A DNA stretch of 64,000 nt from Allobosea sp. TND4EK4 (GTDB lineage Bacteria > Pseudomonadota > Alphaproteobacteria > Rhizobiales > Beijerinckiaceae): positions 1 to 64,000 of the forward strand of contig NZ_FTMO01000009.1 of NCBI RefSeq assembly GCF_900156025.1, written 5' to 3'. The position numbers and the translations under genes are program-made. The notes below the pieces were generated by a model that saw nothing but the letters and a program-made list of their open reading frames with translations, had not been told where the DNA came from and did no database searches. The stretch's first letter is position 1. The number at the start of each line of letters is the position of its first letter. This document shows, piece after piece, positions 39,231 through 63,056 of the stretch.

Positions 39231-41699
39231 TCAATAGCTGGCATCGAGAAGGCCGTTGACGGCTCGGACGAGGCCGGCCGGCCGTGATGGTGCCGTGCGG
39301 CGCGCCAGCAACCGAATCCGCCGGGGTTCGCCCGGGGCGAGATGGAACCAGCTGTCCTGCGGCCGCCAATGCGGGTCGACGATCTCGACCGACTGGGCGA
39401 AGCGCTGGACCGAGACCAGCAGGGTCCAGCCCTCGCCCTGCGCTTCGAGCGTCGCCTCCAGCCCCAGATCGTGCCGCTCATGGCCGCGGCCGAGCGGGAA
39501 ATGGAAGGCCTGCGCCAGCACGGCGCCGCTGTCCGCGTCGCGCAGCACGGCCGAAGTCACGTCATGGCCGGGCGGGCCGAAGCGGTAGGCATAGCTGATG
39601 TCGAAGAAGCGGCCGATGAGGTCGAAAGCGGACAGGGTCCGGGCCGAGCGGGCCTCCAGCGCGATCTCGCGCCGGGCCTTGACCACGGCGGTGCGGCCGT
39701 CGCGCCAGCAGGTCAATTCGAGATGCGTGGCAAGCGCTTGGGGCTTTTCGTTGATGAGGTGGATCGCGAGGCCGTTGACGCCTTCGTCGGTGAGCGCGAG
39801 CTGCACCGGCCGGAAGGCGCGCTTCAGCCCGTGCCAGGCGGATTTCGGCTCGCCGTCGCTGGCGATGACGCCCCAGCCGGCACCGGGCTGCAGATCCTGC
39901 AACAGCCAGACCAGCGCGCCGCGTGTCGGCGAGGCGGGGCGGCGCCATTCGGCGAAGCTCTCCTCCATCACCTCGGCGACCGTGGCGCGGGAGAGGGCGA
40001 AATAGCGTTCCGGGTCCTCGCGGCGCAGCCGTATCGGGTCGAGCCCGTAGAGCCGGCCGAGATAGTGGTCGCGGACGTCCTCGAAATCCCAGGAGGCAGA
40101 GGCGTCGCGCGGGACGCCACGCTTCCAGTCGGGATGATGGGTGATCGCCGGCGGGTGCCCGCTGCTCAGCGACACCTCTTCGGGCACGTTGGCGAAGGCC
40201 AGGCATTCGGCTGCGAAGCGCACCTCCGCCCGGCGCGCATCGTCGAGATCGCGCAGATAGGCGCCGACGCCATAGTAATGCGTCACGCCGGCATTCGCGA
40301 CGAAGGGCAGGGCGCCGCCCGAGGGCGAGTTCGGCACATAGGCGATGTCCGGCCTCCTGTCCGCGAGCGCAGCCGGCAGGATCTCGTCGAAGACCGGGCC
40401 GGACCATGCCTCCGGCGGCGCACCGAGCATCGCTGCCTGCTGGAAGACCTCGCTGCCGCCACAGAGCACGACGAGGCTGGGCGAGGCCTGCGTCCGGTCC
40501 AGCAGCTGATCGGCCTCGGCGCGGATGGCGTCGCGGAAACCGGAATCGGCCTGCGGATAGTCGAAATTGGCCAGCGCCATCTCCTGCCAGACCATCAGGC
40601 CGAGCTCGTCGCAGAGCGCCAAGAAGGCATCGTCCTCATAGGCCATGACACCGGGCAGGCGGATCATGTTCATGCCGGCCTCGCGCGCCAGCCTGAGCCA
40701 GGGCTCGTAGGCCCCGCGTCCCCCGGCGAGCGCCGTCACGTCGGCGCTGCTCCAGCAGGCGCCGCGGCAGAACACCGGCACGCCATTGACGATGAGGCCG
40801 AAGCCCTGGCCGTCCGCGCCGCGATCGACCGCCAGCGAGCGGAAGCCGATGCGGCCGAGGTCGATGGTTTCGCTGCCGAGCGTCACGGTCAGGCCGTGCA
40901 GGGCCGGCTCGCCATGGGTATGGGGAAACCAGGGTGCGATGCCGGGGAGGGTGAGGGTTCCTGTGAGGGTGTTCGGGGCGGTGAGGCGGAGAGGGGCTGC
41001 CGCCTCGGCGCAATTCAGGGTGACGGACCCACCGTCGGCCAGGGCTTCGCCCAGCGTGATCGTCAGCGCGACGGTCCCGGTGCCCCCCTCATAGGTCGTC
41101 TTCAGGTCGATGGCCGTGATCGCGGGGGCGGTTTGATCCCGCTCCACCCGCCATATCGGCCGATAAGGCCCCGTCGGCAGGCCGGGCGGGTTCCAGCCGG
41201 GAGCCGAGCCCAGAGCCGTGGTGCGGAACCAGCGCAGGCCGTTGGGCTGGATCATCGCCGGGCGCCAGCGGGAGCGCCGCGGGGCGGCGGCGAGCCTGGG
41301 ATTGAGCGCGCGGAAGCACAGCGCGATCTCGGCGCCGGCCGCAGCCGCGACGGCGATCTCGATGGCCATGAACATCGAGGCGCTCTCGGCGCGTTTCTCG
41401 CCGTCGATCCAGATCTCGGTGAGGGTGGCCAGCCCTTCGAAGCGCAGCACGCCCGCGAGCGGCTCGCCAAGGCGGGTGCGGTACCAGTGGTCCTGATCGG
41501 CGATGGCGGCGGCGCTGGCATCGGTCAGCCGGCCTTGCCGGCGCAGCGTGCCGGCGACCGTGCCGGGCATGACGGCCTCGTGCCAGCCTTCGCCCGGCAG
41601 CGCCGAAGGGGTGTCGACGGCGCTGGCGGTCGTGGCGAGCCACTCCCAGCCCGGAAGGGGCGCGACGCTTTCGCCGGTGCGGGCGACGATGCGGGCCAT
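39231..41699 (-). CDS. Glycoside hydrolase family 2 protein, beta-mannosidase-like
   Basis: An 822-residue GH2 protein without a signal peptide. It has an N-terminal sugar-binding jelly roll, an Ig-like domain and a TIM barrel from about residue 290. The acid/base Glu is probably in VVLCGGSEVFQQAAM (near 413) and the nucleophile in VRFAAECLAFANVPEE (near 496). MIRLPGVMAYEDDAFLALCD is the typical barrel start. It most resembles beta-mannosidases; the natural substrate is unknown. The ATG comes two bases after the DUF1839 stop, so it belongs to the carrier-protein operon. It may trim or process the glycan that is made or modified by the neighbours. Confidence 0.82.
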   Translation of the reverse strand: MARIVARTGESVAPLPGWEWLATTASAVDTPSALPGEGWHEAVMPGTVAGTLRRQGRLTDASAAAIADQDHWYRTRLGEPLAGVLRFEGLATLTEIWIDGEKRAESASMFMAIEIAVAAAAGAEIALCFRALNPRLAAAPRRSRWRPAMIQPNGLRWFRTTALGSAPGWNPPGLPTGPYRPIWRVERDQTAPAITAIDLKTTYEGGTGTVALTITLGEALADGGSVTLNCAEAAAPLRLTAPNTLTGTLTLPGIAPWFPHTHGEPALHGLTVTLGSETIDLGRIGFRSLAVDRGADGQGFGLIVNGVPVFCRGACWSSADVTALAGGRGAYEPWLRLAREAGMNMIRLPGVMAYEDDAFLALCDELGLMVWQEMALANFDYPQADSGFRDAIRAEADQLLDRTQASPSLVVLCGGSEVFQQAAMLGAPPEAWSGPVFDEILPAALADRRPDIAYVPNSPSGGALPFVANAGVTHYYGVGAYLRDLDDARRAEVRFAAECLAFANVPEEVSLSSGHPPAITHHPDWKRGVPRDASASWDFEDVRDHYLGRLYGLDPIRLRREDPERYFALSRATVAEVMEESFAEWRRPASPTRGALVWLLQDLQPGAGWGVIASDGEPKSAWHGLKRAFRPVQLALTDEGVNGLAIHLINEKPQALATHLELTCWRDGRTAVVKARREIALEARSARTLSAFDLIGRFFDISYAYRFGPPGHDVTSAVLRDADSGAVLAQAFHFPLGRGHERHDLGLEATLEAQGEGWTLLVSVQRFAQSVEIVDPHWRPQDSWFHLAPGEPRRIRLLARRTAPSRPAGLVRAVNGLLDASY

Positions 41700-41701
41700 G
41701 C

Positions 41702-42703
41702 TCAGCCCGTCAGGCGGCGCGCCAGCGCTTCGCCGACTTCGTCCCAGGCCGTCGCGAGGTCGCCGAGCGCGTTGTCGAAGCGCTCGAAGCGCTTCTGCTT
41801 CATGGCGCGGGCGAGGTGGAACTGGGCGATCTTGCTGCCTTCCGCGATGCGCAGGGCCGCGTCCCGGGCTTCAGTGAAGGCGCTCGCATCGAGCCAGTCC
41901 AGATGGCTTGCCAGAAGCTCGAAATTCGCCCCGAGCTGGCGCAGCGTGTTGAAGGCATAGAGATGGAAGGCCTGGCCCGGCCGCTCGGCCAGCGCCTCGG
42001 CCTGCGCCATCGCCACGGCACGGTAGGCCGCGACCGGATTCGCCGCCGGGCGCCGCGCCCAGTGGCGGGCGAGCAGGCGCAGGGCGGTGGCCTTCAGATG
42101 GGCTTCGGCGGGCGGGTTCGCCGGCAGGCGCGCCATCTCGGCATAGGGGAACAGCGTGTCCTCGCGTTGCTGGCCGGGCAGCAGGCGGAAGAGCCCGTCG
42201 AAATCCTCAGCCTGGGCGCGGTGGAAGCCGTCATTGTGGAAATAGTCGAGCTGCCGGCCGGCGCGATCGAGCCGGTTGACCGCGATCGTCGTCTTGCCGT
42301 GGCTCTCGCGGTAGGAGAGGCCCTGCGTGTCCGGCATGTAGAAGGAATCGAGCTCGATCAGCACGAGCCGGCCGCGCGCGATCTGCTGCTCGATATGCCC
42401 GATCAGATCGTCGTAGAGCGCCAGTTCCGTGACCTGGAGCCCGTAGAGCGCCTCGAGATCGTCCAGCGGCGGCTTGAAGAAGGTGAACTGGTCGCCCTCG
42501 AAATCCTGCGCCACGGTGAAGCCGAAGGCGGCGGCGGGCTCAGTGCCCAGCGCGTGCAGGATCTCGATCCAGAGATCGGCATAGCAATTGGTCTGCGGCC
42601 AGTGGCGCTCGCCCGCATGCATCGCGTGGGGGCTGTAGGCCAGCGGGTCGACCGGCAGCAGGGCCTTGGCGCTCGGCTTTTCGAGCGCGGAATGGGCGGT
42701 CAT
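41702..42703 (-). CDS. DUF1839 protein, possible BtrH-like acyltransferase
   Basis: A 333-residue protein of the DUF1839 family. Its first half resembles the papain-like N-terminal domain of BtrH, which moves an acyl group from a carrier protein to an aminoglycoside. The visible parallels are the NCYADLW helix start with the only Cys (C40), a RLVLIELDSFYMPDTQG strand like the LVxVDxYYLP strand of BtrH, a His at 135 in RESHGKTTIAVNRL, and Asp153 in RQLDYFHNDGF. The second half is helical. I therefore infer a Cys-dependent aminoacyl transferase. This has not been shown for the family as far as I know. The ATG at 42703 is preferred over a longer frame that runs into the repeat. Confidence 0.75.
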   Translation of the reverse strand: MTAHSALEKPSAKALLPVDPLAYSPHAMHAGERHWPQTNCYADLWIEILHALGTEPAAAFGFTVAQDFEGDQFTFFKPPLDDLEALYGLQVTELALYDDLIGHIEQQIARGRLVLIELDSFYMPDTQGLSYRESHGKTTIAVNRLDRAGRQLDYFHNDGFHRAQAEDFDGLFRLLPGQQREDTLFPYAEMARLPANPPAEAHLKATALRLLARHWARRPAANPVAAYRAVAMAQAEALAERPGQAFHLYAFNTLRQLGANFELLASHLDWLDASAFTEARDAALRIAEGSKIAQFHLARAMKQKRFERFDNALGDLATAWDEVGEALARRLTG

Positions 42704-42754
42704 GCGCCGCTTCCCTTCGCTTGTGGCGTCGTCTCGACGCTGTTCATTCGCGCG

Positions 42755-42849
42755 GTCGTCCCAGGCTTGACCGGGATCCATTCCGGAACGCTGCCGATGC
42801 AGGTTCAGGCATGGGTCCGGGATCTCCGCATTGCTGCGTCCGGGATGAC
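42755..42849. repeat. Palindromic repeat, family A, copy inside the operon
   Basis: It starts with GTCGTCCCAGGCTTGACC, contains CCGGGATCCATTCCGGAAC, and ends with GTCCGGGATGACG. It sits between the aminoacyl-carrier ligase and DUF1839 genes, inside an otherwise tight operon. Confidence 0.7.
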
Positions 42850-42877
42850 GCGGCGGTTCATGCGCAAACCGGAACCA

Positions 42878-43798
42878 TCAGCCCCAGAGCACGTCGCGCA
42901 CGGCCTTCGGCCAGGCCTCGACGTCGTAGCCATGGTGCCTGAACAGGGCGAGCGCCACGCGCTCCATGCCGAAGCCGACGCAGGCGGTGTGCGCGGTCTC
43001 GCCCGCGGCGGTCTGGATGCCCCAGGTCGTGCCGAAATGGTCCTGATGGTAGTTGAAGGAGAGGCAGGCGGTGGGCTTCTCCTTGCTCTCGATCGGGATC
43101 AGCAGCTCGAACTTCAGGCGCTGGTCGCGCTGGTTGTTGGCGAGCATGCGGCCGGCGCGGCCGAAGAAGGGGTCGTTGGCGACGTCGACATCCAGCGGCA
43201 CGCCGAGCGACTTCATCATCGCCTGCCCACGCTCCAGCCAGGTGGCGCGGAACTCGGTGACCTGGTCGGGCGTGCCGAAGCGGACATATTCGCGCATCCG
43301 GAAGAGCTGCATCCGCGCCGGGTCCTTCGAGGGCTCGTGGCGGAAGCAGTACGACTGCAGGTCGAACAGCGCGCCGTCGGCCTTCAGAGGGCCGCGCTTG
43401 GCGACGACCGGATAGAGCGGGTAGCAGGCGGCCGGCGTCAGCACGACCTCGGTCGAGACCTGGCCGTCGGTCCAGTCCACCCCGTCCGCCACGTTATGCA
43501 GCAGCTGGGCATGGGCGCGCTCGTCGCCGGCGAAGGAATGCACCGTGCCGGCGAGCTGCGGGAAGCTTTTCAGATAGCCGCTCTTCTCGAAATGCTTGCG
43601 GCTCATGGCGGGGGGAAAGCGCACGATCTCGGCGCCGTCCTGCCCGCCATAGCGGGTGATCAGGTCATCGAAGCGGGCGATGACCTCCTCGAACAGCCCG
43701 CTGCGGCCGTAGAGCCCGTCGACGCCGGTGTCGATCAGCAGGCCGGTGTCGATCAGTTCCGCGAGGAAGCCCTGCGGCTGGGGGCAGTTCTGGCACAT
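42878..43798 (-). CDS. Amino acid:[carrier protein] ligase
   Basis: A 306-residue class II aminoacyl-tRNA-synthetase homologue of the atypical seryl-tRNA-synthetase type, without a tRNA-binding domain. Such proteins charge the phosphopantetheine arm of a small carrier protein with a free amino acid, often glycine or alanine. Motif 2 is [20 protein letters not shown] and motif 3 is [19 protein letters not shown]. The candidate zinc ligands Cys125, Glu170 and Cys273 have spacings of 45 and 103, the same as C131/E176/C279 of the Bradyrhizobium Gly:CP ligase. The amino acid specificity cannot be read safely. It is third in the operon, five bases after the ACAD-like gene. Confidence 0.92.
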
Positions 43799-43803
43799 TC
43801 AGA

Positions 43804-45060
43804 TCACCGGGAAAGGCTGGAATCGTGCTTGTACACGGCCAGCAGGTTGGAGGTGTTGCCGAGGATGCGGTCGTTGTTGATCATGATCGGGGCCGAGAGC
43901 GCATCGCGCATCAGCCGCGCCAGGCTCAAGGGACTGTCGTTGCGATAGCCCTGGATGCCGCAGATCAGGAAAGCCTGCGTCACGATCTCGCCGACGCTTT
44001 GCGAGGCGGCGATCTTGATGCTGTTCATGGCGACGACGAAGCCCATCGAGGAGAGCTCGTCGGCATCGCCGCGGGCGCGCTCGTAGCGGTCCAGCCCGGC
44101 GACGATCAGCGCCTTGAACTGCTGGAGCTTGGCCAGAAGCTCGGCCAGGCGCAATGCGCTCGGCGGGGTGGAGCCCGGCTTCTTGCGGGCTTCCGTCCGC
44201 ACGAAGCTCTCGCAGCGGGCCACGGCCTCGGCCGCGATGCCGTACCAGATCGCCGCCCAGAGCAGATGGGCATGGGCCAGCATGGACTGCGCCGCAATCT
44301 CGGCGAAGGGGGTCGGGATCACCTGCGGCAGCGGGGCGCGGCCGGCAAAGGTAAAGTTGTCGGAGCAGGTGCCGCGCATGCCCATCGTGTCCCAGACATG
44401 GCTGCGCTCGAGCCGGTACTGGTCGCGGGTCATCACCGCCATCACCTGGTCGGAAGGCGGGGCCTCGGGCGTGCGGCGGGCCGTGATCAGGATGGCGTCG
44501 GCCTGCGCCCCATAGGAGATCAGGCAGCCTTCCTTCTCCAGCGTGAAATCCTCGCCGTCGCGCACCACGCCGCAGACCGAGCTGCGCAGGTCGCCGCCGA
44601 CGCCGCCGCCCTCGGTGGTGGCCGAGGCCAGCAGCAGCTGCTCGCGGGCGATCCGCTCCATGAAGCCGGCATGCCAGGGATCGTCGCCGCAATGGACGAC
44701 GAGGCTCGACGCCTTGATCTGGTGCATGGCGTAGACCATCCCGGTCGAGGAGCAGGCCTGCGACAGCACCGAGCAGATTTCGGCGATGGTCGGCAGGCTC
44801 GCCTGCGCGCCGCCCTGGGCGGCCGGGATCATGATGCCGAGCAGGCGCTCGCGCTTGAGCGCCTCGAACGCCTCGTGCGGAAAGCGGGAATTCGCATCGA
44901 CATCGGCCGCATGCTCGGCCGCGATCTTCGCGACCTTGCGGGCGGCGGCGATCATCGCCTTTTCCGCGGCGGCCGCGCCGGCGAAATCGACGAGGACAGG
45001 AGCGGGGGCGCCGGCCCCGGACTCCGGCGCAGGCTGGGAGCGCAGGGCGGGGGCGGCCAT
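43804..45060 (-). CDS. Acyl-CoA-dehydrogenase-like flavoprotein
   Basis: A 418-residue acyl-CoA dehydrogenase-fold flavoprotein. The N-terminal helical part has VLSQACSSTGMVYAMHQIKA, and the middle shows the FAD/substrate strand DTMGMRGTCSDNFTFAGRAP. The end is ICGIQGYRNDSPLSLARLMR, DALSAPIMINNDRILGNTSN. The canonical catalytic Glu of the YEGT motif is replaced here by NNDR, so the base must be elsewhere or the reaction differs. In natural-product pathways such enzymes oxidise aminoacyl groups bound to carrier proteins. Its place between the carrier protein and the ligase suggests the same here. The ATG overlaps the carrier-protein stop by one base. Confidence 0.85.
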   Translation of the reverse strand: MAAPALRSQPAPESGAGAPAPVLVDFAGAAAAEKAMIAAARKVAKIAAEHAADVDANSRFPHEAFEALKRERLLGIMIPAAQGGAQASLPTIAEICSVLSQACSSTGMVYAMHQIKASSLVVHCGDDPWHAGFMERIAREQLLLASATTEGGGVGGDLRSSVCGVVRDGEDFTLEKEGCLISYGAQADAILITARRTPEAPPSDQVMAVMTRDQYRLERSHVWDTMGMRGTCSDNFTFAGRAPLPQVIPTPFAEIAAQSMLAHAHLLWAAIWYGIAAEAVARCESFVRTEARKKPGSTPPSALRLAELLAKLQQFKALIVAGLDRYERARGDADELSSMGFVVAMNSIKIAASQSVGEIVTQAFLICGIQGYRNDSPLSLARLMRDALSAPIMINNDRILGNTSNLLAVYKHDSSLSR

Positions 45061-45305
45061 CAGGCGTGCTCGCTCAGGATGCTCTGGAGCGCCTGCTCGA
45101 TCCCGGAGATCGAGGCGAAGTTGCGCCGGTTCATCATCTTGTCGGGGAATTCGAGGTCGAAGGCCTCCTCCAGCGCCATCATCAACTCGACGGTCCCGAA
45201 CGAGGTCAGGCCGGCGTTGAAGAGGTCGTCGTCGTCGCGCAGGGTCGCGACATCGACGGGCAGCTTGGCGGTCTTCGTCAGGATTTCACGGATCTTTGTC
45301 TTCAT
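45060..45305 (-). CDS. Acyl/aminoacyl carrier protein
   Basis: An 81-residue carrier protein with a four-helix ACP pattern. The phosphopantetheine Ser is at position 35 in DLFNAGLTSFGTVELMMALE; the usual DSL is TSF, as in carrier partners of amino acid:[carrier protein] ligases. VELMMALEEAFDLEFPDKMM is the recognition helix. It should be charged by the ligase at 42878-43798. AAGGGCAGG precedes the ATG. It is the first gene of a five-gene operon with one- to five-base junctions up to the ligase. Confidence 0.92.
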   Translation of the reverse strand: MKTKIREILTKTAKLPVDVATLRDDDDLFNAGLTSFGTVELMMALEEAFDLEFPDKMMNRRNFASISGIEQALQSILSEHA

Positions 45306-45593: not shown

Positions 45594-46847
45594 CTATGCG
45601 AAGGACGGGGCGGGGTGAGCGACGGGAGCCGGTGCCTGCCGCTCGGCGAGGTCGGCAGGTTGTGTCTGGTCGCCGTCGCTGGACCCCACCATGAACCAGA
45701 GCAACGCGGCGGTCTTGATCGAATAGACCGAGTCGCTGACCAGCATGAGCAGGCAGATATAGGTCGCGACGGCGGCGCGAAGGCGCCAGGCCCGTGCCGA
45801 GCGCTCGGGCATGAAAATGAACAGGCTCCAGAAGCCGATGACACCGACAAGCCCGATCTGGTTCAGCGAATAGGCATAGCCGCAATCCGAGAGGAAGGGC
45901 TTTTCGGGGGAAAGCCCCCAGACCGCCTCCGGCGACAGGGAGGTGATCAGCCTGGCCGCCCAGAGCATGCGCCCGCCCAGATTGTTCTGCCAGTTCACTT
46001 CGGCGCTGACGAAGCCGTAGATGGCCAGCCCGCTCATCACGGCGAAAGGGGCGGCGAGCCAGACGAAGCGGGGCGTGAGCGGGGCAACGAGCCAGGCGAA
46101 GGTGGCGATGATGCAGACATTCGCGCCGAAGCGGGAGTCGCTCAGGATGATGGCGAAGGCGCCGGCTGCCATCGTCAGCCAGCGATGGCGCATGCCCTTG
46201 CGCGCGAGCGCCCAGATATAAAGGATGGCGCCGAAATTGCCGGTCGAGATCGGCTCGAGGAAGACCGATGAGGCGCGGTGCGGCCCGAGAAAGGGCAGGA
46301 GGGTGCGCGAGTCGGGCCTGAGGCCGCTCTGGAACAGGGCGCCTGTATCGGGCTTCACGTCGCTTGGGGCGACCGTGCCGCGCGCCACGTAATATTTGAT
46401 GATGTTGAAATACTTCACATAGACGTCGAGCGCGGCGAATTCGAAGATGCCGAAGATGATGACGATGATCCCGCAGATCAGCGCGGCGCGGTCGGCGATG
46501 CGGATGTCGTTGCAGGTTCGGCCGAGCAGATAAAAAGCGATCGGAATGAGAAAGTCACGCACCGCCTTGGGGTCGAGCTGCGGGCGCAGCGCCATCAGCA
46601 GCGCCGCATAGGACAGGAAGACCGCGAGGACGACATAGGGCCCGGTTTTCCGTCCAAGGCCGAGATAGAGGGCTATGGCGACGAGGACGACCTCGCAGCC
46701 CATCACCATCACGTCGTTGACGCCGAAGACGTTGGTGTTGATGAAGCACAGCGCCATGTTGAAGGTCAGCGCGCCAACCAGCAGCAGCAGCGGCAGGATC
46801 GGAGCCGGTGCGCCAGGCACCGACGGGGCGGCCGACGCGTCGCTCAT
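45594..46847 (-). CDS. Wzy/O-antigen-ligase-like polysaccharide polymerase
   Basis: A 417-residue membrane protein with about 10-12 helices. It has a central periplasmic loop (about 160-195, GALFQSGLRPDSRTLLPFLG then PHRASSVFLEPISTGNFGAI) and a late segment SPEKPFLSDCGYAYSLNQIG of the kind seen in exopolysaccharide polymerases. Such proteins join repeat units in the periplasm. It starts one base after the Wzz-like gene's stop, so the two form a minus-strand pair. A GC hairpin without T tract lies just past its stop. Confidence 0.75.
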   Translation of the reverse strand: MSDASAAPSVPGAPAPILPLLLLVGALTFNMALCFINTNVFGVNDVMVMGCEVVLVAIALYLGLGRKTGPYVVLAVFLSYAALLMALRPQLDPKAVRDFLIPIAFYLLGRTCNDIRIADRAALICGIIVIIFGIFEFAALDVYVKYFNIIKYYVARGTVAPSDVKPDTGALFQSGLRPDSRTLLPFLGPHRASSVFLEPISTGNFGAILYIWALARKGMRHRWLTMAAGAFAIILSDSRFGANVCIIATFAWLVAPLTPRFVWLAAPFAVMSGLAIYGFVSAEVNWQNNLGGRMLWAARLITSLSPEAVWGLSPEKPFLSDCGYAYSLNQIGLVGVIGFWSLFIFMPERSARAWRLRAAVATYICLLMLVSDSVYSIKTAALLWFMVGSSDGDQTQPADLAERQAPAPVAHPAPSFA

Positions 46848-46848
46848 G

Positions 46849-48891
46849 TCAGCCGGCCTGGCGGAAGCGGCTGAGCCAGCTCACCTTGCCCGCCTCGCGG
46901 GAGGGGCTTCCGGCCGGATCCGCCACCACCAGCGCGACGATGCGGCTGCGCTCCGGCGCGGCGCGGTCCGCCGCTTCCTGCAGCGCCTCGAGGGTCTGGC
47001 CGGCGACAGCCGTGGCGAGAACGACCCCATCGGCATCCGCATGAGCGCGGCCCTCCGCGGTGGCCGGGCGCATGATGATGAAGCTGTGACGCCGGCGGGC
47101 GGGCTTGGGCTCGTCCTCGCCGATGCGGCGAATGCTGAGGTGGCGGCTGCCGACATCGCCCTGATAGATCAGGACGCTTTCGCCGCGCAGAGCGAGTTCC
47201 TGCGCGAGCTGGTCTGCGATGGAATCCAGCGTCGCCGCGGGCAGGGAGCCTGTAACGGTGATCGTGGCCGGGAGCCGCTCGCCGAACCGCTGCTCCAGCG
47301 TGTCGGCGACCGGGCGCAGGGCGGCACGCTTCTCCGCCTGCGCCTCCGGCAGCGAGACCACGGTACCGATGCCGAGGGCGGCAGCGGCACTCGCCGGCGT
47401 CGGTGGCGACGAGGGCTTGGGGCGGGTGGGAAGCTTCGGCAGGCGCGGGAGGCGGGCCGACAGGGTCGGCAAAGGGGGCAGCAGACCGCCCTTCGCAGGC
47501 AGGAGCTCGAGTAGATAGGCGAGCCCCAGCCCGAGGCAGGCGCCGAAAAGCAGCGCTGCCCCCAGCACCAGCGCCAGTGGCGGCTTGCTGGAGACGACCG
47601 GCGGAACGGCCTCGGACAGCAGGCGGGAGTTGTTGGTCTCGATCTTCTTCTGCTGGTCCAGTTCCTTCGCGCGCTGCAGCGAGGCGTTGTAGACGACGCG
47701 GATGGCCTCGGCCTCGCTCTGCAGCTGGCGCAGGCGGATCTGGGCGGCACTGCTGACCTCCTGCGTGCGCGTCAGCTCGCTGGCGCGCCTTTGCAGATTG
47801 GCGAGGTTGGCCTCGGCCTGTCGATAGCCCTCCTGCGCTGAGGCGCGGATCCGGGTCAGCTCGGAGGTCATCAGGCGACGCGTTTCGGCGAGTTCGGAGC
47901 GCAGCTCGATCATCCGGGGATGCTGCGGCGCCAGCGTGCCGCCCAGACTCGCGATCTCGCGGGAGGTCTGGGCGTATTGCCCCTTGAGCGAGGTCAGCGA
48001 AGAGGAATTCGCCGCCTCGGGCAGCGCCTCCGCAAGGGCGATAGGGTCGCTGCCGACGCGGCTCAGTTGCTCGCGCCTGGCCTGCTGGCGAGCCACCTCG
48101 GCGGTCGCCTGACCGATCTGGCTGTAGAGGTCGCGCAATTGCTGGGTGACGACCAGCCCGCTTTCGCCGGTGCTGATGAGCCCGTTCTTGCTGCGGAACT
48201 CGTCAGCGGCCCGCTCGGCCTCGTCGAGCTGGGCACGCAGGCCCGAGATCTGGCCGATCAGGGAAGCGTTGGCGCGCTCCACCGCCGAGCGGCGCCCGTC
48301 GATGCCCTGCTGCAGATAGGCCTGCGCCAGGGTGTTGGCGATCTCGGCCGATTTTTGCGCATTTGGATGCGAGACCGTGATGCGGAAGACGAGGGAGTTG
48401 TCGACGCGCTGGATCACGATCGCGCGCTTCAACCCGTCGATCGCCGAGGCGAAGCGCTCGGCCGGCGTCGGCTGCGCGATCTTGCCGAGCAGGCGGGTCA
48501 GCAGGCCGGGCGCGCCGGCGATGGCGGGGTCGTCGACCAGCCCCAGATCGTCGACGACCTGCTTGAGCACGCCCGACGAGACCATGATCAGGGCCTGGCT
48601 GTCGACATTGGCGAAGTCGATCGACGCGGAGGTGTCCGTCCGGACGATATCCTTGCCGACGACCTGAAGCGCCGTGGGATCGACGAGGACCTCCGCGGTG
48701 GCCCGGTAGACGGGGGGCCGCGTCGCGGCGTAGGCGAAGGCGAGGAGCATGCAGACCGCGATGCTGGCCAGCACCAGCCTGCGCCGGCGACGCAGCAGTC
48801 TCAGCATCTCGGGCAGGCTGAACGCCATGGCGGGCCTGGCCGGCGCCGCTGCAATGGTCTGTTCGCCGGCCTCCAAGGCAGCAGCCTGCAC
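46849..48891 (-). CDS. Wzz/GumC-like chain-length protein with degenerate kinase domain
   Basis: A 680-residue inner-membrane protein. It has a first helix (RLVLASIAVCMLLAFAYAAT), a Wzz domain, and a long periplasmic coiled coil (about 190-400: EFRSKNGLISTGESGLVVTQ, QLRDLYSQIGQATAEVARQQ and so on). A second helix (LALVLGAALLFGACLGLGLA) is followed by a Pro-rich linker. The C-terminal 190 residues take the place of a BY-kinase but lack Walker motifs, so the kinase part is missing or degenerate. It sets chain length in Wzx/Wzy-type polysaccharide export. The GTG at 48891 has GAGGAGG eight bases upstream. Confidence 0.85.
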   Translation of the reverse strand: MQAAALEAGEQTIAAAPARPAMAFSLPEMLRLLRRRRRLVLASIAVCMLLAFAYAATRPPVYRATAEVLVDPTALQVVGKDIVRTDTSASIDFANVDSQALIMVSSGVLKQVVDDLGLVDDPAIAGAPGLLTRLLGKIAQPTPAERFASAIDGLKRAIVIQRVDNSLVFRITVSHPNAQKSAEIANTLAQAYLQQGIDGRRSAVERANASLIGQISGLRAQLDEAERAADEFRSKNGLISTGESGLVVTQQLRDLYSQIGQATAEVARQQARREQLSRVGSDPIALAEALPEAANSSSLTSLKGQYAQTSREIASLGGTLAPQHPRMIELRSELAETRRLMTSELTRIRASAQEGYRQAEANLANLQRRASELTRTQEVSSAAQIRLRQLQSEAEAIRVVYNASLQRAKELDQQKKIETNNSRLLSEAVPPVVSSKPPLALVLGAALLFGACLGLGLAYLLELLPAKGGLLPPLPTLSARLPRLPKLPTRPKPSSPPTPASAAAALGIGTVVSLPEAQAEKRAALRPVADTLEQRFGERLPATITVTGSLPAATLDSIADQLAQELALRGESVLIYQGDVGSRHLSIRRIGEDEPKPARRRHSFIIMRPATAEGRAHADADGVVLATAVAGQTLEALQEAADRAAPERSRIVALVVADPAGSPSREAGKVSWLSRFRQAG

Positions 48892-49305: not shown

Positions 49306-50532
49306 ATGCGCATCCTGATGGCCTGCGCCGCGTTTCCGCCGTTCATCGACGGCGGCGGGCCGATCTCGGCGATGATCGTCGCCAAGCTGCTGCTCGACCT
49401 CGGCCATGAGGTCACGGTGGTGAATGTCGCCGACGAGGCGCGCGACGAGGTCTATGACGGCGTCCCGGTGCGGCGGCTGTCCTCGCTCAACATCGACTGG
49501 AACTACCGCCTGCCGCGGCCAGCCTGGAAGAAGCTCGTCTGGCATGCGCTGGAGAACTTCAACCCCCGGGCCTTCTTCGCGATGCGCCGGCAGATCCGCG
49601 AGCTCAAGCCCGATCTGGTGCTGACCGACTCGATCGAGAACATCAACGTCGCGACCTGGGCGGCGGCCAAGAGCCGGGGCGTGCCCGTCGCCCATATCGT
49701 GCGCAGCGCCTTCCTGATCTGCTGGAAGGGAAGCATGTGGCGGGAAGGGCGCAATTGCGAGGGCGCCTGCGGTTCCTGCCGGGCCAGCTCCTTCGGCAAG
49801 AAGCTGAGCTCCCGCTTCGTCGATGCCGTGATCGGCGAGACCGACTTCATCCTCGAGCGGCATTTTTCCGAGGGCTATTTCCCGTGGGCCTCGCGTCACC
49901 GGATTCCCGGTGCCGTCGCCGTGCCGCCCGGCGCGATGCCCCGCCCGGTGCCGCCGGCCGACAGGCCCCTGCGGGTCGGCTATATCGGCGCTCTCGACCA
50001 GATCAAGGGCCTGGACACGCTCGCGGGCGCCGCGCATCGCATGGCCGGTCGCGCAGTCGAGTTCATCGTGGCCGGGGCGGGCTCCCACGCTTATGCGAAA
50101 ACCCTTCCGGAGCGGTTTCCGGCCGGGAATACCCGCTTCCTCGGCTGGACGAGCCCGGACGCGTTCTTCCCGCAGATCGACGTCCTGGTGATCCCGACCT
50201 TGTACCGCGAACCCTTCGGGCGGGTCGTTATCGAGGCCTTCGCGCAGGGCGTCCCGGTGATCGGCGCGCGCAATGGCGGCATCCCGGAGACGATCGAGCC
50301 CGGCGTCAACGGCCTGCTGTTCGAGCCTGGCGACGAGGCCGGCCTCACCGAGCGGATCGACCAGCTGCTGGCCGAGCGTGGCCGGCTTGCGGATCTGTCG
50401 GCCGGGGCGCTGCAGGCGGCGTTCGGCTACGCGCCGGAACGCGTCGCGGCCGCTTTCGACAAGGTGCTGACCGGTCTGGTCGTGCCGAAGGCTGAGCCGC
50501 GCGTGCTCCAGGCGAAGGGCTCGCTGCCGTGA
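49306..50532 (+). CDS. GT4-family glycosyltransferase
   Basis: A 408-residue GT-B glycosyltransferase. It has an N-terminal acceptor domain with the Gly-rich loop FPPFIDGGGPISAMI, a Cys-rich loop CWKGSMWREGRNCEGACGSC often seen in this subgroup, and a C-terminal donor domain with YREPFGRVVIEAFAQGVPVI (EX7E pattern). It adds a sugar to the growing repeat unit. I chose the ATG at 49306, because the longer frame runs into the promoter region. It opens a five-gene operon in which each stop overlaps the next start by about four bases. Confidence 0.88.
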   Translation: MRILMACAAFPPFIDGGGPISAMIVAKLLLDLGHEVTVVNVADEARDEVYDGVPVRRLSSLNIDWNYRLPRPAWKKLVWHALENFNPRAFFAMRRQIRELKPDLVLTDSIENINVATWAAAKSRGVPVAHIVRSAFLICWKGSMWREGRNCEGACGSCRASSFGKKLSSRFVDAVIGETDFILERHFSEGYFPWASRHRIPGAVAVPPGAMPRPVPPADRPLRVGYIGALDQIKGLDTLAGAAHRMAGRAVEFIVAGAGSHAYAKTLPERFPAGNTRFLGWTSPDAFFPQIDVLVIPTLYREPFGRVVIEAFAQGVPVIGARNGGIPETIEPGVNGLLFEPGDEAGLTERIDQLLAERGRLADLSAGALQAAFGYAPERVAAAFDKVLTGLVVPKAEPRVLQAKGSLP

Positions 50533-51908
50533 TCGCGCTGCTTCGCCATCTGCGCCATGTCGAGGGGCGCCGCTTCATCTCCGCCTTCTCGTCGCGGTTC
50601 AGCAGCACGCTGCTGAGCTTCCTCGTGCTGCTGACGTCGAGCCACTTCCTGCCGACGCAGGAATACGGGCTCTATGTCTTCCTGTTCTCCGTGGGCAGCG
50701 CGCTCGGCCTCATCGCCGTGCTCGGCCAGCAGATCCTGGTGGTGAAGCATTATCAGCGCAAGCAGGGCGCCGAGCTGCCGCAGAACCAGGCGCTATTGGG
50801 GGTCAATGCGGCCTGGCTCGGGCTCGGCAACGCTCTGCTGCTGCTGGGCGCGGCCATCCTCTATGCCGTCTCCGGCTCGCTGCCGGAGACCTATCGGCAT
50901 TTGTGGCTCGCCTTCGTCTTCGCCGCGGTGTTTTCGCTCAGCGAATATCTGCAGAACTATTTCCGCATCCATGGCGAGATCAACCTCTCCTTGCTGCCGC
51001 GCGAGATCGTCTGGCGCGGCGGCTCCATCCTGGCGATCGGGGCGGCGGGGCTCGGCGGCATCCTCGGCGGGGGGCAGGGCGTCATGCTGCTCCTGACGGC
51101 GCTGCTCTTCGCCACGACCTTCTACCAATGCGCCGCCTTCCTGCGGCGGGAGGGAACGGCCTGGCTGCGGGCGAGAGCCGGCGCTCCGGCAGCGATGCGG
51201 GCCGAATGGCACAAGGAGAGCGGCTACTTCATCGCCAACGGCGTCTTCATCTCGGCCTCGGCCTATTTCGAGACGATCCTGATCGGGGTGCTGCTCGGCC
51301 TGGACAAGGCCGGGTTCTATTTCGTGGCGCTGCGCATCGCGATGCTGCTGACGCTGCCGGTGGCGGCGATCGACACCGTCGGCATCCCGATGATCGCGGC
51401 GCGGGTCCAGAACAACGACATGCCCGGCGTGCAGAAGCTCGTCGCGCAGCTCTCCTTCGGCAGCTTCGTGATCTCGCTGGCCGGCGGCGTCTGCCTCGCT
51501 GTGCTGGCGCCGTTCGTCCTCACCCTCTTCAATCCCGAATTCGTGCGGCACGAAGACGTCCTCACCGCGCTCTGCGTACTCGCGGTCGTGCAGGCCTTCT
51601 TCGGGCCGGGGTCCTGGCTGCTGATGATCGGCGGCGGCGAGCGCTACTTCCTTGGCGCGCGGGCGATCCTGTTCGTCTTCTATATCGGGCTGCTCTGGTG
51701 GCTCGGCAGCATCGGCGGCCTGATGGGCATCGCCATCGCCAGCGTCATCTTCACGGTCGCCCTCAATCTCGTGGCCTGGCACTGGGTCAAGTCGCGCTGG
51801 GGCGTCGACAACATGGCCAGTGCGTTCATCCGGCCCTTCCTGTTCGGCGGGCGGCCGACCGAGAAACCTTTCGAACGGCCCGAAGCGGCCCATGGAGCGG
51901 GACAATGA
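50529..51908 (+). CDS. Polysaccharide flippase, Wzx-like
   Basis: A 459-residue membrane protein with 12-14 helices of the MOP/polysaccharide flippase type. It starts at a GTG that overlaps the previous stop. RFSSTLLSFLVLLTSSHFLP begins the first helix, and FYFVALRIAMLLTLPVAAID is the typical mid-protein segment. It should flip lipid-linked repeat units to the periplasm, as partner of the Wzy- and Wzz-like proteins across the divergent promoter. Confidence 0.85.
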   Translation: MIALLRHLRHVEGRRFISAFSSRFSSTLLSFLVLLTSSHFLPTQEYGLYVFLFSVGSALGLIAVLGQQILVVKHYQRKQGAELPQNQALLGVNAAWLGLGNALLLLGAAILYAVSGSLPETYRHLWLAFVFAAVFSLSEYLQNYFRIHGEINLSLLPREIVWRGGSILAIGAAGLGGILGGGQGVMLLLTALLFATTFYQCAAFLRREGTAWLRARAGAPAAMRAEWHKESGYFIANGVFISASAYFETILIGVLLGLDKAGFYFVALRIAMLLTLPVAAIDTVGIPMIAARVQNNDMPGVQKLVAQLSFGSFVISLAGGVCLAVLAPFVLTLFNPEFVRHEDVLTALCVLAVVQAFFGPGSWLLMIGGGERYFLGARAILFVFYIGLLWWLGSIGGLMGIAIASVIFTVALNLVAWHWVKSRWGVDNMASAFIRPFLFGGRPTEKPFERPEAAHGAGQ

Positions 51909-53713
51909 GCGCTTCGGCAGTGCGTGCTGCAACACAGATCATTCCGTTGCGGCCGGCCGGGGCGGAGCACGAGCCCTCGCGCTTCGGCGAGCCCGTCGTC
52001 ATTCGCAACAGCCTCGGCCTGCTCTATCCGGGCGATGCCGGGATCGCGGTGCTGATGCTGGGCGCCGTCGGCTACGAGGAGATGTGCCTGCGCACCACCT
52101 GGCAGGCGCTGGCCGAGGGGCTTTCGCAAGCCGGCATCGCCAGCCTGCGCTTCGACTGGCCGGGCCAGGGCGACGCGCCGGAGGCGGACGATGTCGAGGG
52201 CCTGGCCGACTGGTTCGAGACCGTCCGCACGGCGGCAGAACGGCTCAGGCGCGCCAGCGGCTCCTCGCGGCTGGTGCTGGTCGGGCAAGGCCTCGGCGGC
52301 ATGCTGGCGCTGCATGCGGCTCAGGCGGTGCAGCCGCTGGCCGGGACCGTGCTGATGGCGCCGGTCGCGAACGGCAAGCGCTATCAGCGCGAGCTTTCCG
52401 TCTGGACGCGCATGGTCTGCGACCGGATCGGCATCGGCGTCGATCCCGATGACGACACCGCCTGCGCGGTCGCCGGCATCCGCATCGCCCCCGGGCGCCT
52501 GCATGCCATCGCCGGCCTGAAGGCGGATGCGGTGGAAGCGGCGCCCTCCGAGGAGGTGCTGCTGGTCGCGCGACCGGGGCATGCGGCTGACGACGCGGTG
52601 GAAGCGGTGCTGACCGGGCTGGGCTGCAGCGTCACCCGGCAGCCCTATGAGGGCTATGAGGTTCTGACGACCGATCCGACGGCGGCGCGACCGCCGCGCG
52701 AGACACTCGCGGCGATCGTGCGATGGGTGCTGGAGCGCGCCTCGGCATCCATCCCGCCGCAGGGCGAGCGCGTGGTCCCTCTCCCCCGGCCGCAGGGCGA
52801 CGACGAGGTGCTGAAGGGCGAGGGCTTCGTCGAGCGGCCCTTCCGCTTCGGGCCGGACGGACGCCTGCTCGGCATCCTCTGCGAGCCGGCCGGCGCGGCG
52901 GCCGAAGGCGACCCCGTGCTCTTCGTCAATGCGGGGCGCGACTACCATATCGGCTGGGCGCGGGTGACCCTGAACCAGGCACGCGCCTTCGCCAGGCGCG
53001 GCGTCGCCTCGCTGCGCTTCGACTGCAGCGGCATCGGCGACAGCCCGGCGGCGAGCGACGGCCCGGAGGAAATCCTCTATTCGCAGGCGCAGATCGACGA
53101 TGTCAGCCTCGCGATCGATGCGCTGGCGGCGCGCGGTTTCGCCCCTCCGGTTCTGGTCGGCCGATGCAGCGGGGCCTATGCCGCCTTCAATGCCGCGGTC
53201 GCGGATGCCCGGGTGCGCCGCCTCGTCATGGTCAACAACGAGCGCTTCGTCTGGGACCCGGACGAGAGCGTCGAGGACGCGATTCGCTACGCGCATCGCA
53301 GCGTGGGCGATTTCGGCGCGACCTTGCGGCGCAAGGGCGGGTTGCGGCGACTCTTCACCGGTCAGCTCAGGGTCGGGCCGGCGGCGCGCTACATCCTCTT
53401 CCGCTGGCACAAGCAGGTCTCGGTCGCGCTCGCGCCTGTCCTGGGCCGGCTGACGAAGCATGGGCGGCTGCACCGGGAAGTCCATCGCCGCATGGGCGTG
53501 CTCGCGGGGCGCAAGGTCGAGGTCTCGCTGGTCTATGCCGAGGGCGATGTCGGCATGGCCGAGTACCGCACCTATTTCGGAGCGAGGGGCGAGCGGCTTT
53601 CGGGCTATCGCGAGGCCTCGCTGACCATGATTGCCGATGCCGACCACAACTTCACCCACCGCGCGGCGGCCGACCGGCTGCTGGCCGTGCTGACCCGGCT
53701 GGTGGCGCCGTGA
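51905..53713 (+). CDS. Tandem alpha/beta hydrolase, first half degenerate
   Basis: A 602-residue protein made of two fused alpha/beta hydrolase domains (about 30-290 and 310-600), similar to serine aminopeptidase-like hydrolases of exopolysaccharide loci. The first domain's elbow reads LVLVGQGLGGMLALHA, with Gly instead of the Ser nucleophile and no clear His, so it is probably inactive. The second domain has VLVGRCSGAYAAFNAA, with Cys at the nucleophile place, and IADADHNFTH for the His. It may add or remove acyl groups on the polysaccharide or its precursor. It starts at an ATG that overlaps the flippase stop. Confidence 0.8.
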   Translation: MSASAVRAATQIIPLRPAGAEHEPSRFGEPVVIRNSLGLLYPGDAGIAVLMLGAVGYEEMCLRTTWQALAEGLSQAGIASLRFDWPGQGDAPEADDVEGLADWFETVRTAAERLRRASGSSRLVLVGQGLGGMLALHAAQAVQPLAGTVLMAPVANGKRYQRELSVWTRMVCDRIGIGVDPDDDTACAVAGIRIAPGRLHAIAGLKADAVEAAPSEEVLLVARPGHAADDAVEAVLTGLGCSVTRQPYEGYEVLTTDPTAARPPRETLAAIVRWVLERASASIPPQGERVVPLPRPQGDDEVLKGEGFVERPFRFGPDGRLLGILCEPAGAAAEGDPVLFVNAGRDYHIGWARVTLNQARAFARRGVASLRFDCSGIGDSPAASDGPEEILYSQAQIDDVSLAIDALAARGFAPPVLVGRCSGAYAAFNAAVADARVRRLVMVNNERFVWDPDESVEDAIRYAHRSVGDFGATLRRKGGLRRLFTGQLRVGPAARYILFRWHKQVSVALAPVLGRLTKHGRLHREVHRRMGVLAGRKVEVSLVYAEGDVGMAEYRTYFGARGERLSGYREASLTMIADADHNFTHRAAADRLLAVLTRLVAP

Positions 53714-54744
53714 GGCGCCTCGTCCTCGCACTGGTCGCGGCGTTGCTCGCCGCGCCGCCGGCGCAGGCCGAGATGTGCCTGCGCGGGGTCAATCTTTCCG
53801 GCGCCGAGTTCGGCGACGTGCCCGGCAAGCCGGACAAGGACTACACCTATCCCGCCGAGGCGGCCTTCAAGCGGCTCGCGGCGCTCGGCGCGGGCTCCGT
53901 GCGGCTGCCCTTCCGCTGGGAGCGGCTCCAGCCGGCGCTGGGGGAAGGGCTCGACATCATGGAACTCGCCCGCCTCGACCAGGCGGTGCGCCAGGCCACC
54001 GATGCCGGGCTGGTCCCGATCCTCGACCTGCATAATTTCGGCTATTACGACAAGCGCCGCCTCGGCTCGAAGGAGATGCCGGCCGAGCGGCTCGGCGATG
54101 TCTGGCGGCGTCTGGCGTCGCACTACAAGGACCGGCCGAAGCTCGTCTTCTCGATCATGAACGAGCCCTACGACATCCACAGCGCCGAATGGGCCAGGAT
54201 CCAGAACGTCGCCGTCGCGGCGATCCGCCAGGCAGGGGCCGGCCAGCTCATCCTCGTCACCGGGACCGCCTATGGCGGCGCCCATAGCTGGACCAGCGAC
54301 CTGCCCGTCGGCAACAACGGCCGCGACCTCCTCGATGTGAAGGACCCGCTGGACCGCTACGCCTACGACTTCCATCAATATCTCGATGCCGATTTCTCGG
54401 GGCGCGCCGCCGAGTGCTCTGCCGCTCAACGCGCCGTCACGGCGATCGACAGCGTCACGGCCTGGCTAAAGCAGCACGACCGGCGCGGCTTCCTCGGCGA
54501 GTTCGCGTCGTCCTCGCAGCAGGATTGCCTCGCGGCGCTGGGCCAGCTCGCGGCGCGGGTGGATGCCCATCCGCGGCAATGGGTGGGCTGGGCCTATTGG
54601 GGTGCCGGAGCCTGGTGGCCGCCGGACTATGTCTTCAATATCGAGCCGACCGCCTCGGGAGAGCGGCCGCAGATGAAGGTGCTGATCGACCGCTTCCGGG
54701 CGACGAAGGGCAAGGCCGTGTGCGGGCGCGAGGCACGGCCTTGA
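53710..54744 (+). CDS. Secreted GH5 endoglucanase-like glycosidase
   Basis: A 344-residue protein with a signal peptide (LVLALVAALLAAPPAQA) and a GH5 TIM barrel. LRGVNLSGAEF is the typical start, FSIMNEPYDIHS holds the acid/base Glu, AYDFHQYLD a conserved His/Tyr pair, and RGFLGEFASSSQ the nucleophile Glu. In exopolysaccharide loci such enzymes trim the polymer or set its length in the periplasm. The GTG at 53710 overlaps the hydrolase stop. Confidence 0.9.
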   Translation: MRRLVLALVAALLAAPPAQAEMCLRGVNLSGAEFGDVPGKPDKDYTYPAEAAFKRLAALGAGSVRLPFRWERLQPALGEGLDIMELARLDQAVRQATDAGLVPILDLHNFGYYDKRRLGSKEMPAERLGDVWRRLASHYKDRPKLVFSIMNEPYDIHSAEWARIQNVAVAAIRQAGAGQLILVTGTAYGGAHSWTSDLPVGNNGRDLLDVKDPLDRYAYDFHQYLDADFSGRAAECSAAQRAVTAIDSVTAWLKQHDRRGFLGEFASSSQQDCLAALGQLAARVDAHPRQWVGWAYWGAGAWWPPDYVFNIEPTASGERPQMKVLIDRFRATKGKAVCGREARP

Positions 54745-55883
54745 ACGCGACTGGCTTTCCCGTTGCCGCGGAGCTGCCCCAGGGCACGCGCATCGTCCAT
54801 GTCGTCAGGCAGTTCCTGCCCAATCGCGGCGGGCTGGAGGATGTCGTTTCGAATCTCTGCAAGGCGCAACTGCGTCTTGGCCTGCGGCCCTCCGTCGTCA
54901 CGCTGAACCGGCTGTTCGTCGAACCTGACCGGCTCCTGCCGGCGCGAGAGGTCATCGACGGCATCCCGGTCACGCGGATTCCTTTCCGGGGCTCGAGCCG
55001 CTATCCGCTGGCCCCCTCCGTCTTCGCGCATCTGCGAGACGCCGACATCGTCCATGTCCATGCGATCGACTTCTTCTTCGATGCGCTGGCGCTCGGGCGC
55101 CTCGTCCACGGCAAGAAACTGGTCGCGACGACCCATGGCGGCTTCTTCCACTCCGGCGACTATGCCTCCCTGAAGGAGCTCTGGTTCAGGAGCGTGACGC
55201 GGCTCTCGGCGCGCGCCTATCGCGGCCTTGCCGCCTGCAGCGCGGCCGACGCGGTGCGATTCCAGGCCATTGCCGGCGAACGGGTGATGCTGATCGAGAA
55301 CGGCGTCGACATCGCCAAATTCGCCGGGGCGGCCAGCCCGGTACCGCGGCGCCGGCTGGTCAGCATCGGGCGCTTCTCCAAGAACAAGCGGCCGGACCGG
55401 CTGATCGCGACGATGCAGGACCTCGCCAGCCGCGACCCGGATTGGCACCTCGACCTCGTCGGCGTCGCCTCGGACTGGACCGGGCCGGCCCTGCGCGCGG
55501 CGATCGCCAAGGCCGGGATGGAACGCCATGTGTCCCTGCACCTTGGCCTCGGTGACGATGAGGTGCGGCGTTTGCTCGGGCAGGCCTCGCTGTTCGTCTC
55601 GGCCTCGGAATTCGAGGGGTTCGGCCTCGTTCTGATCGAGGCGTTGAGCGCCGGGCTCGTGCCCGTCGTCCAGCCGAACGCTGCCTTTTCGGGGCTGGCC
55701 TCGGAGTTGCCGGCCGTCCGCCTCGCCGACTTCAGCCGTCCGGAGGCGGCTGCGGATGCGATCACCGCAGCCTTTGAGGCGCTGCGCGTCGCGGGCGGGC
55801 TGGACCCCGATGTGGCCCGGCAGATCAGCCATTACTCCTGGGATGATGTCGCCCGGCGCTATCTGGCGCTCTACACGCGCTGA
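54741..55883 (+). CDS. GT4-family glycosyltransferase
   Basis: A 380-residue GT-B glycosyltransferase. QFLPNRGGLEDVVSNLCKAQ is the N-terminal acceptor loop, RRRLVSIGRFSKNKRPDRLI starts the donor domain, and ASEFEGFGLVLIEALSAGLV is the EX7E donor site. It starts at a TTG that overlaps the GH5 stop by three bases, and it ends the polysaccharide operon. Its sugar specificity is unknown. Confidence 0.88.
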   Translation: MNATGFPVAAELPQGTRIVHVVRQFLPNRGGLEDVVSNLCKAQLRLGLRPSVVTLNRLFVEPDRLLPAREVIDGIPVTRIPFRGSSRYPLAPSVFAHLRDADIVHVHAIDFFFDALALGRLVHGKKLVATTHGGFFHSGDYASLKELWFRSVTRLSARAYRGLAACSAADAVRFQAIAGERVMLIENGVDIAKFAGAASPVPRRRLVSIGRFSKNKRPDRLIATMQDLASRDPDWHLDLVGVASDWTGPALRAAIAKAGMERHVSLHLGLGDDEVRRLLGQASLFVSASEFEGFGLVLIEALSAGLVPVVQPNAAFSGLASELPAVRLADFSRPEAAADAITAAFEALRVAGGLDPDVARQISHYSWDDVARRYLALYTR

Positions 55884-60209: not shown

Positions 60210-60211
60210 CG

Positions 60212-62881: not shown

Positions 62882-62913
62882 CGCGTGATGTCGATCGTTC
62901 TACACCTCCTCCA

Positions 62914-63028: not shown

Positions 63029-63056
63029 GCGGCGGATGGGTGTCCGCTGCTTCAGG

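Follow-up and report, generated by a model that had tools for sequence, protein, structure and literature searches.

Relatives of the seryl-tRNA synthetase (SerRS)-like amino acid:[carrier protein] ligases charge a carrier protein with an amino acid, and in a 2022 review the role of the charged carriers is given as unknown (PMC9437257). In a note in proof of 2010, it was proposed that the ligase, the carrier, a redox enzyme, Atu2574 and a glycosidase together attach an amino acid to a surface sugar by an amide bond, which Atu2574 would form (PMC2922099); from its place, Atu2574 is taken to be a member of the family DUF1839. This family was described in a 2023 survey as papain-like, with Thr/Ser and His swapped and with glycan processing as the guessed function (PMC10318531). 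The lincosamide synthetase CcbD passes carrier-bound proline to its own Cys and from there to the amine of a thiooctose (PMC12945683). In this study, a stretch of 64,000 nucleotides from Allobosea sp. TND4EK4 (contig NZ_FTMO01000009.1, positions 1 to 64,000; the window, meaning the whole stretch analysed) was found to carry, on the minus strand, five genes for a carrier protein, a flavoprotein, a SerRS-like ligase, DUF1839 and a GH2 enzyme beside polysaccharide genes. Together with a sixth gene for a tandem alpha/beta hydrolase, they are proposed to form a cassette aminoacylating an exopolysaccharide, a reading to which we give a probability of about 55%.

Conservation of the five-gene block

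The block is transcribed in the order carrier, flavoprotein, ligase, DUF1839 and GH2, and the open reading frames (ORFs) were called by a home-made codon score. They encode an acyl or aminoacyl carrier protein of 81 amino acids (45060–45305; PF00550 at 7.8e-09, NF005480 at 2.3e-31), an acyl-CoA-dehydrogenase-fold flavoprotein of 418 amino acids (43804–45060; PF02771 and PF00441, and alignment to 8i4p), a SerRS-like amino acid:[carrier protein] ligase of 306 amino acids (42878–43798; solved relatives 4h2w and 3mey), DUF1839, a proposed carrier-protein-dependent amide synthase (41702–42703, with a longer ORF start at 42781; PF08893 at 1.3e-122), and a GH2 beta-mannosidase-like enzyme (39231–41699; PF22666 at 5e-09, with beta-mannosidases as the best solved relatives at 1.4e-92). 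The five co-directional genes named in the original prediction, which was made from the letters of this DNA, are borne out by ORF positions and family matches, and so are the one-base overlap and the five-base gap among the first three genes and the two-base gap between the last two.

In a survey of 249 genomes of the same order, drawn by the tool, a ligase match was found in 52, with 48 of them over the curated cut-off, and DUF1839 in 36. Forty-nine ligase loci besides the window were fetched from this survey, two fragmentary matches (G029 and G032) being left out. All five genes are present in 35 of these loci (36 counting the window), 12 have a second type of ligase and the flavoprotein without DUF1839 and GH2, and two are distant. 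The ligase adjoins DUF1839 in every one of the 36 DUF1839 genomes. Moreover, among the best 80 loci of a list of named loci, a choice hence biased to close relatives, 75 hold all five genes; L055, L062, L071 and L085 run off their contigs, and L075 is the one genuine exception. The closest ligases among these 80 are from Bosea (L051 and L052, 94% identity). The block was seen in Azospirillum too, and four genomes of a different class (family f95) have it. It is far more than a chance arrangement.

Several irregular loci were seen in addition. Two contigs labelled as Myxococcaceae metagenome-assembled genomes (L070 and L092) hold the usual block with ligases 69–70% identical to that of the window, and are possibly misbinned. 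In G210, DUF1839 was matched as two overlapping pieces (C1:2515620-2516545), which would reflect either a disrupted gene or a sequencing error. Two genomes from a different class, G476 and G546 (L163, L164, L165), hold two DUF1839 copies, one of which is without a detected adjoining ligase and has the tandem hydrolase about 4.5 kb off. Upstream of the block in 16 of 91 loci, there are genes for a PF00152 class II synthetase-like protein, a radical S-adenosylmethionine (SAM) protein and a third protein (clusters 6–8; L103, L094, L115 and others). The radical SAM neighbour has a weak lysine-aminomutase match, and the three loci given as examples come from Rhizobium or Agrobacterium. These genes may serve the modification of elongation factor P (EF-P).

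Linkage to polysaccharide genes and the sixth gene

For the linkage test, all matches at E up to 0.001 were used, some of them below curated cut-offs, and the expectation was calculated from random positions with the genomes treated as independent though they are related. In 24 of 36 genomes, Wzz is no more than 25 kb from the block (1.13 expected), and in 25 of 36 the same is true of a PF01943 flippase (1.17 expected). The original prediction was to fall if the set were normally unlinked to polysaccharide genes; the linkage is strong across the order, and the idea that it is a chance feature of this window was rejected against the expectation.

Neighbour clustering was performed on the 91 loci that remained of 131 sequences (130 loci and that of the window) after removal of 40 near-duplicates, and it showed a hydrolase gene close to GH2 in many of them. 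In the window this gene is located at 51947–53713 on the plus strand, and the two halves of its product relate to hydr2_PEP and hydr1_PEP (TIGR03101 and TIGR03100); against hydr1 and hydr2 it scores 89.9 and 55.7 bits, both below the curated cut-offs of 168.45 and 202.75 bits, respectively. A full-length hydrolase (at least 222.7 bits) is present in exactly the same 36 of the 249 genomes as DUF1839, and the best score in the other 213 is 40.5 bits; up to five candidates per genome were scored, at least one match at E up to 0.001 was obtained for 112 of the 249 genomes, and the co-occurrence counts related genomes. Furthermore, it was found in all 10 further DUF1839 genomes of a phylum survey of 398, including four of four from another class. 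The original prediction, correct for the five-gene block, left unconnected this sixth gene, whose distribution matches that of DUF1839. In the C-terminal half, Cys407, Asp534 and His567 are kept in 32 of 32 sequences, and at the nucleophile position of the N-terminal half, 31 of the 32 have Gly or Arg and one has Ser.

For the hydrolase, the distance to Wzz is at most 25 kb in 30 of the 36 genomes (1.18 expected), the distance to PF01943 also in 30 (1.22 expected) and the distance to the block in 29; counting either marker, 26 blocks and 32 hydrolases are near Wzz or PF01943. Block and hydrolase are apart in seven genomes, one of which, G246, was rejected as a separation because a contig break falls inside GH2 (L148). 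In five of the seven (G027, G137, G165, G187 and G210), the hydrolase, though separate from the block, has Wzz no more than 10 kb away. In G010, no Wzz was found by Pfam within 10 kb of the hydrolase, and a copy (L150) is near weak Wzz- and Wzx-like matches (26% and 24%). The hydrolase of G210 is 766 kb from the block and inside a locus (L146) that matches the polysaccharide genes of the window, with Wzx, Wzy, Wzz, both glycosyltransferases and GH5 at 42–63% identity (Wzx 55%, a glycosyltransferase 63%, Wzy 60%, GH5 48%). In addition, the hydrolase is fused behind a flippase in 11 of 100 hydrolase ORFs of the fetched loci (eight from Rhizobium, two from Rhizobiales bacterium, plus L002; PF13440 is shown for L115), and the fusion is probably one event.

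The wzy-like, wzz-like, flippase and glycosyltransferase neighbours claimed for the window are all present. The Wzy-like polytopic membrane protein (45594–46847, minus strand) has eight hydrophobic segments and no Pfam match, and the Wzz chain-length protein (46849–48828, minus strand, longer ORF start at 48891) matches PF02706 at 1.7e-10 and PF13807 at 2e-08. On the plus strand there are a GT4-type glycosyltransferase (49306–50532, longer ORF start at 49129; PF00534 and PF13692), a Wzx-type flippase (50529–51908; PF01943 at 5.6e-09), a GH5 hydrolase with an N-terminus that looks like a signal peptide by eye (53710–54744; PF00150 at 1.9e-42) and a second GT4-type glycosyltransferase (54741–55883, longer ORF start at 54414; PF00534). 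An operon for a branched-chain amino acid ATP-binding cassette transporter at 59511–63977 (minus strand) is apparently unrelated.

Fold and candidate role of DUF1839

The AlphaFold2 (AF2) model of DUF1839, built from 48 sequences, has a predicted local distance difference test (pLDDT) score of 94.3, and the first 19 places in a Foldseek search with it are held exclusively by chains of AziU2-U3, CtaG and CcbD. By VIA-align, the model matches CcbD with Z of 18.9–19.5 over 286–291 residues, AziU2-U3 with 18.1–18.3 and CtaG with 15.6–17.6, and the next match has 8.2. The fold match is near full length, since 270–291 of the 333 residues are aligned with CcbD and CtaG. Like CcbD, CtaG forms amides from a carrier-bound donor. 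All 48 DUF1839 sequences share Cys40, His156, Thr138, Asp125, Thr126 and Asn157, and Cys40 begins a helix (40–51), as for the Cys nucleophile of CcbD, LmbD and CtaG. Moreover, several basic residues are conserved, namely K291 and R299 (48/48), R303 (42/48, Gln in the window), K/R304 (37/48) and K/R305 (44/48), and by analogy they recall the arginines by which CcbD binds its carrier (PMC12945683). No hydrophobic signal was seen at the N-terminus, which makes a location in the cytoplasm more likely. Scanning DUF1839 against PHROGs returned no family. Judging from the model, DUF1839 is most likely the transfer enzyme of the route, a role absent from the original prediction.

Ligase, carrier, flavoprotein and GH2 enzyme

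The ligase scores 512.1 bits with NF005479 (curated cut-off 357), and PF00587 is the sole Pfam match in its 306 residues, which corresponds to a class II core without the tRNA-binding domain. In the carrier, the phosphopantetheine Ser35 lies in the motif GLTSFG, and its column is invariant in an alignment that includes one wrong row. The second-type ligases are 46–51% identical to that of the window (six aligned) and differ from the window type in one stretch, where they are VGQMKAVSQKQQ-like. The helix of 4h2w, 4h2x and 4h2y is close to that of the window ligase, and the 3mey group carries FFGRVGQMKAVSQKQQ. Since both helix forms exist on one ligase backbone in the PDB (the 4h2w group and the 3mey group), we infer that the two forms may represent a grafted carrier-recognition helix. 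A carrier-like gene is located divergently upstream in 10 of the 12 second-type loci (six found via tblastn and four more via clustering), and none was seen in L047 and L048. Of the 48 over-cut-off ligases, 12 belong to the second type, which has no DUF1839 or GH2, so that the pathway cannot be predicted from the ligase by itself. Five second-type loci (L040, L043, L044, L045 and L046) share a trio of genes for a short-chain dehydrogenase/reductase (SDR), an AMP-binding ligase and a small protein without a Pfam match. A protein of about 240–290 amino acids (cluster 47, L030:8585-9460 and relatives) occurs in six second-type loci; the single member scanned matched neither Pfam nor NCBIfam.

The flavoprotein is present in 35 of 35 DUF1839-bearing survey loci and in all 12 second-type survey loci. 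Thus the oxidation, which the original prediction called optional, looks like a fixed step, L075 being the exception. The nearly invariant Ile394 follows M393 (aligned to Y367 of 8i4p) at what appears to be the usual catalytic Glu site; the Glu of 8i4p itself falls beyond the aligned stretch. At the alternative site on helix G, judged by eye, the residue is His265. The flavoprotein therefore seems, from its sequence, to be without the usual catalytic Glu, so that an ordinary dehydrogenase was set aside and a different flavin reaction is likely. Its solved relatives include nitrososynthases and monooxygenases, which rank below several acyl-CoA dehydrogenases.

In the GH2 enzyme, Glu417 and Glu498, which we take to be the catalytic residues, are kept in 40 of 40 sequences and align with the CGNNE and SEFGFQS motifs of 7op6. 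It has Ser416 (40/40) where beta-mannosidases have Asn before the acid/base Glu, and this Asn, which is therefore missing here, usually contacts the C2 hydroxyl of the sugar. Since Ser replaces it, one may speculate that the substrate is a C2-amino sugar. No evident signal peptide was found at the N-terminus.

Proposed route and alternatives

In the route proposed for the window, the SerRS-like ligase would use ATP to load a small amino acid on the phosphopantetheine arm of the carrier, as is known for its family, and the flavoprotein would oxidise the carrier-bound aminoacyl group, likely in an unusual way as it has no usual dehydrogenase base. Cys40 of DUF1839 may then take the acyl group and hand it to the amino group of an amino sugar, in a CcbD-like ping-pong reaction giving an amide, as suggested by the fold and the conserved residues. 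The GH2 enzyme could work on a sugar intermediate in the cytoplasm, and the product would be exported and polymerised by the adjoining Wzx/Wzy/Wzz locus, to which the linkage points. In the weakest step, the tandem hydrolase is supposed to act on the same polysaccharide beside the flippase, perhaps in a second acyl transfer, in proofreading or in ester handling with a Cys nucleophile. The path from an amino acid through an aminoacyl-S-carrier to a glycan, as first predicted, agrees with the genome context and the DUF1839 fold, with the corrections that the oxidation is probably not optional and that a sixth gene was missed. Given the strong linkage of the set with genes for polysaccharide export, the core of that prediction survives, and the extended system is a well-supported candidate route that would place a modified amino acid on an exopolysaccharide.

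Some results weigh against this reading. In ten of the 36 genomes, neither Wzz nor PF01943 was matched within 25 kb of the block, and in four (G010, G117, G174 and G203) neither the block nor the hydrolase is near them. The Roseiarcaceae locus L075 (9562–10891) has the carrier and a 73% identical ligase without the flavoprotein, DUF1839 and GH2. No amino-sugar biosynthesis gene was seen among the scanned window proteins, which cover part of the window. AziU2-U3, which matches DUF1839 nearly as well as CcbD, is not known to be an amide synthase, thus the fold alone does not fix the reaction. A profile of the 48 sequences found no sequence relation to CcbD, LmbD or CtaG in the PDB at E up to 10. 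Furthermore, the triad order reported for DUF1839 is Cys, Thr/Ser, His (PMC10318531), and that of CcbD is Cys-His-Glu. Finally, a fold search with the hydrolase led to ordinary esterases, so naming its reaction from the fold was set aside.

The esterase matches tell equally against an alternative in which the hydrolase is itself the transferase and makes an ester, as with D-Ala on teichoic acids, DUF1839 only relaying the acyl group or being a thioesterase. The invariant Cys-Asp-His residues, the fusion with the flippase in 11 loci and the five genomes in which the hydrolase remains with Wzz when apart from the block all speak for it, but the best folds for DUF1839 include an amide synthase that uses a carrier-bound donor, and the constant adjacency of DUF1839 and ligase is against it too, so we regard it as unlikely, though the least so of the alternatives. 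It is also rather improbable that the cassette makes a small diffusible metabolite, such as an amide of an amino sugar or amine, with historical polysaccharide neighbours: the linkage to Wzz and PF01943 is far over expectation, and the hydrolase follows the polysaccharide locus and can be fused to the flippase. Nevertheless, AziU and CtaG act in antibiotic pathways, as does CcbD, and six genomes have the block and the hydrolase at separate places or on different contigs without a visible assembly break. The suggestion that DUF1839 is an amidase or protease processing cell-wall glycans was derived from its papain-like fold and its context (PMC10318531). We consider this improbable, as the best near-full-length matches of the model are CcbD, AziU2-U3 and CtaG, not peptidases, and the N-terminus has no signal for leaving the cytoplasm. 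Least of all do we expect a system for aminoacyl storage, signalling or detoxification unrelated to glycans; half of the second-type ligases, all without DUF1839 and GH2, lack a Wzz or PF01943 match in the surrounding 25 kb, yet the other six of the 12 lie within that distance of one (0.82 expected), and the linkage of the window type is strong. Aminoacylation of an exopolysaccharide by the six-gene cassette remains our preferred reading.

Comparison with known systems

The idea that an amino acid goes by way of a carrier to a glycan, though supported here, is not new, since it was predicted in 2010, in a note in proof that itself has no fold evidence, sixth gene or linkage statistics (PMC2922099). 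As far as the literature searched shows, the fold evidence for DUF1839, the sixth gene, the linkage statistics, the fusion and the exosortase-A parallel are new; the link between DUF1839 and CcbD and the sixth gene were not found in print in the open-access literature searched. The role of the carriers charged by aminoacyl-tRNA synthetase (aaRS)-like ligases has been open since 2010, and the likeness of DUF1839 to CcbD, the partner hydrolase and an identified polysaccharide locus now narrow it.

The Bll0957-type amino acid:[carrier protein] ligase systems share with the window a ligase of this family with its own carrier and a flavoprotein (PMC9437257), and the window type adds DUF1839, GH2 and the tandem hydrolase. 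With CcbD and LmbD, the likeness is the near-full-length fold match of DUF1839, and these enzymes, by way of an acyl-Cys intermediate, couple an amino acid held on a carrier to an amino sugar's amine (PMC12945683). They differ in having an adenylation domain, an antibiotic product and, as reported, another triad order, whereas the window has a stand-alone aaRS-like ligase and a proposed polymer. If the proposal is true, an antibiotic-type condensation step has been added to polysaccharide synthesis. In DltABCD, an amino acid on a small carrier is likewise fed to a surface polymer, and the window carrier has weak DltC matches; the difference is that DltABCD uses an ester bond and a membrane-bound O-acyltransferase (MBOAT).

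A further parallel is the exosortase-A (XrtA) cassette with hydr1, hydr2, ligase_PEP_1 and dCO2ase_PEP1, in which the same hydrolase pair stands beside a phosphopantetheine (PP)-binding carrier. Sampling 200 genomes of the phylum gave seven from outside the order with a TIGR03100 match (E up to 1e-20). The nucleophile motif of hydr1 is GLCDG in L132 and L137 and GEC in L131, and the pattern GxCxG was not found in the hydr1 proteins of L133–L136, four of the seven and all of one family. A PP-binding carrier is near the hydrolases in L140–L142, the three examined for it among four loci fetched over a wider stretch; L141 has adjoining hydr2 (GLRSG) and hydr1 (GLCDG) genes plus an AMP ligase, and L142 has a hydr2-hydr1 fusion (GCRFG, GLCDG) beside an AMP ligase and a pyridoxal phosphate (PLP) decarboxylase. 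Some exosortase-A hydrolases 1 thus have Cys for Ser in the nucleophile motif, and hydrolase 2 has Arg (L132, L137, L141 and L142). Nothing relevant to exosortase-associated hydrolases was among the literature matches listed. The set is not itself an exosortase-A system, a possibility that was rejected because PF09721 has no match in the genome of the window or in 34 of the 36 block genomes (G041 and G058 have one), with four of four positive controls matching.

It is possible, and we put it forward tentatively, that there is a general, so far unrecognised carrier-protein route for decorating exopolysaccharides via exchangeable modules, in which a loading enzyme and an amino-acid-altering enzyme feed a carrier. 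The aaRS-like version would use a CcbD-type synthase to link an oxidised amino acid to an amino sugar as an amide, and both versions would lead to a hydr2-hydr1 pair with a Cys nucleophile for a further acyl transfer at the flippase. If true, this would suggest why exosortase-A loci have a carrier protein and two hydrolases, the exchangeable modules being an aaRS-like ligase with a flavoprotein in the window and an AMP-forming ligase with a PLP decarboxylase in the exosortase-A loci.

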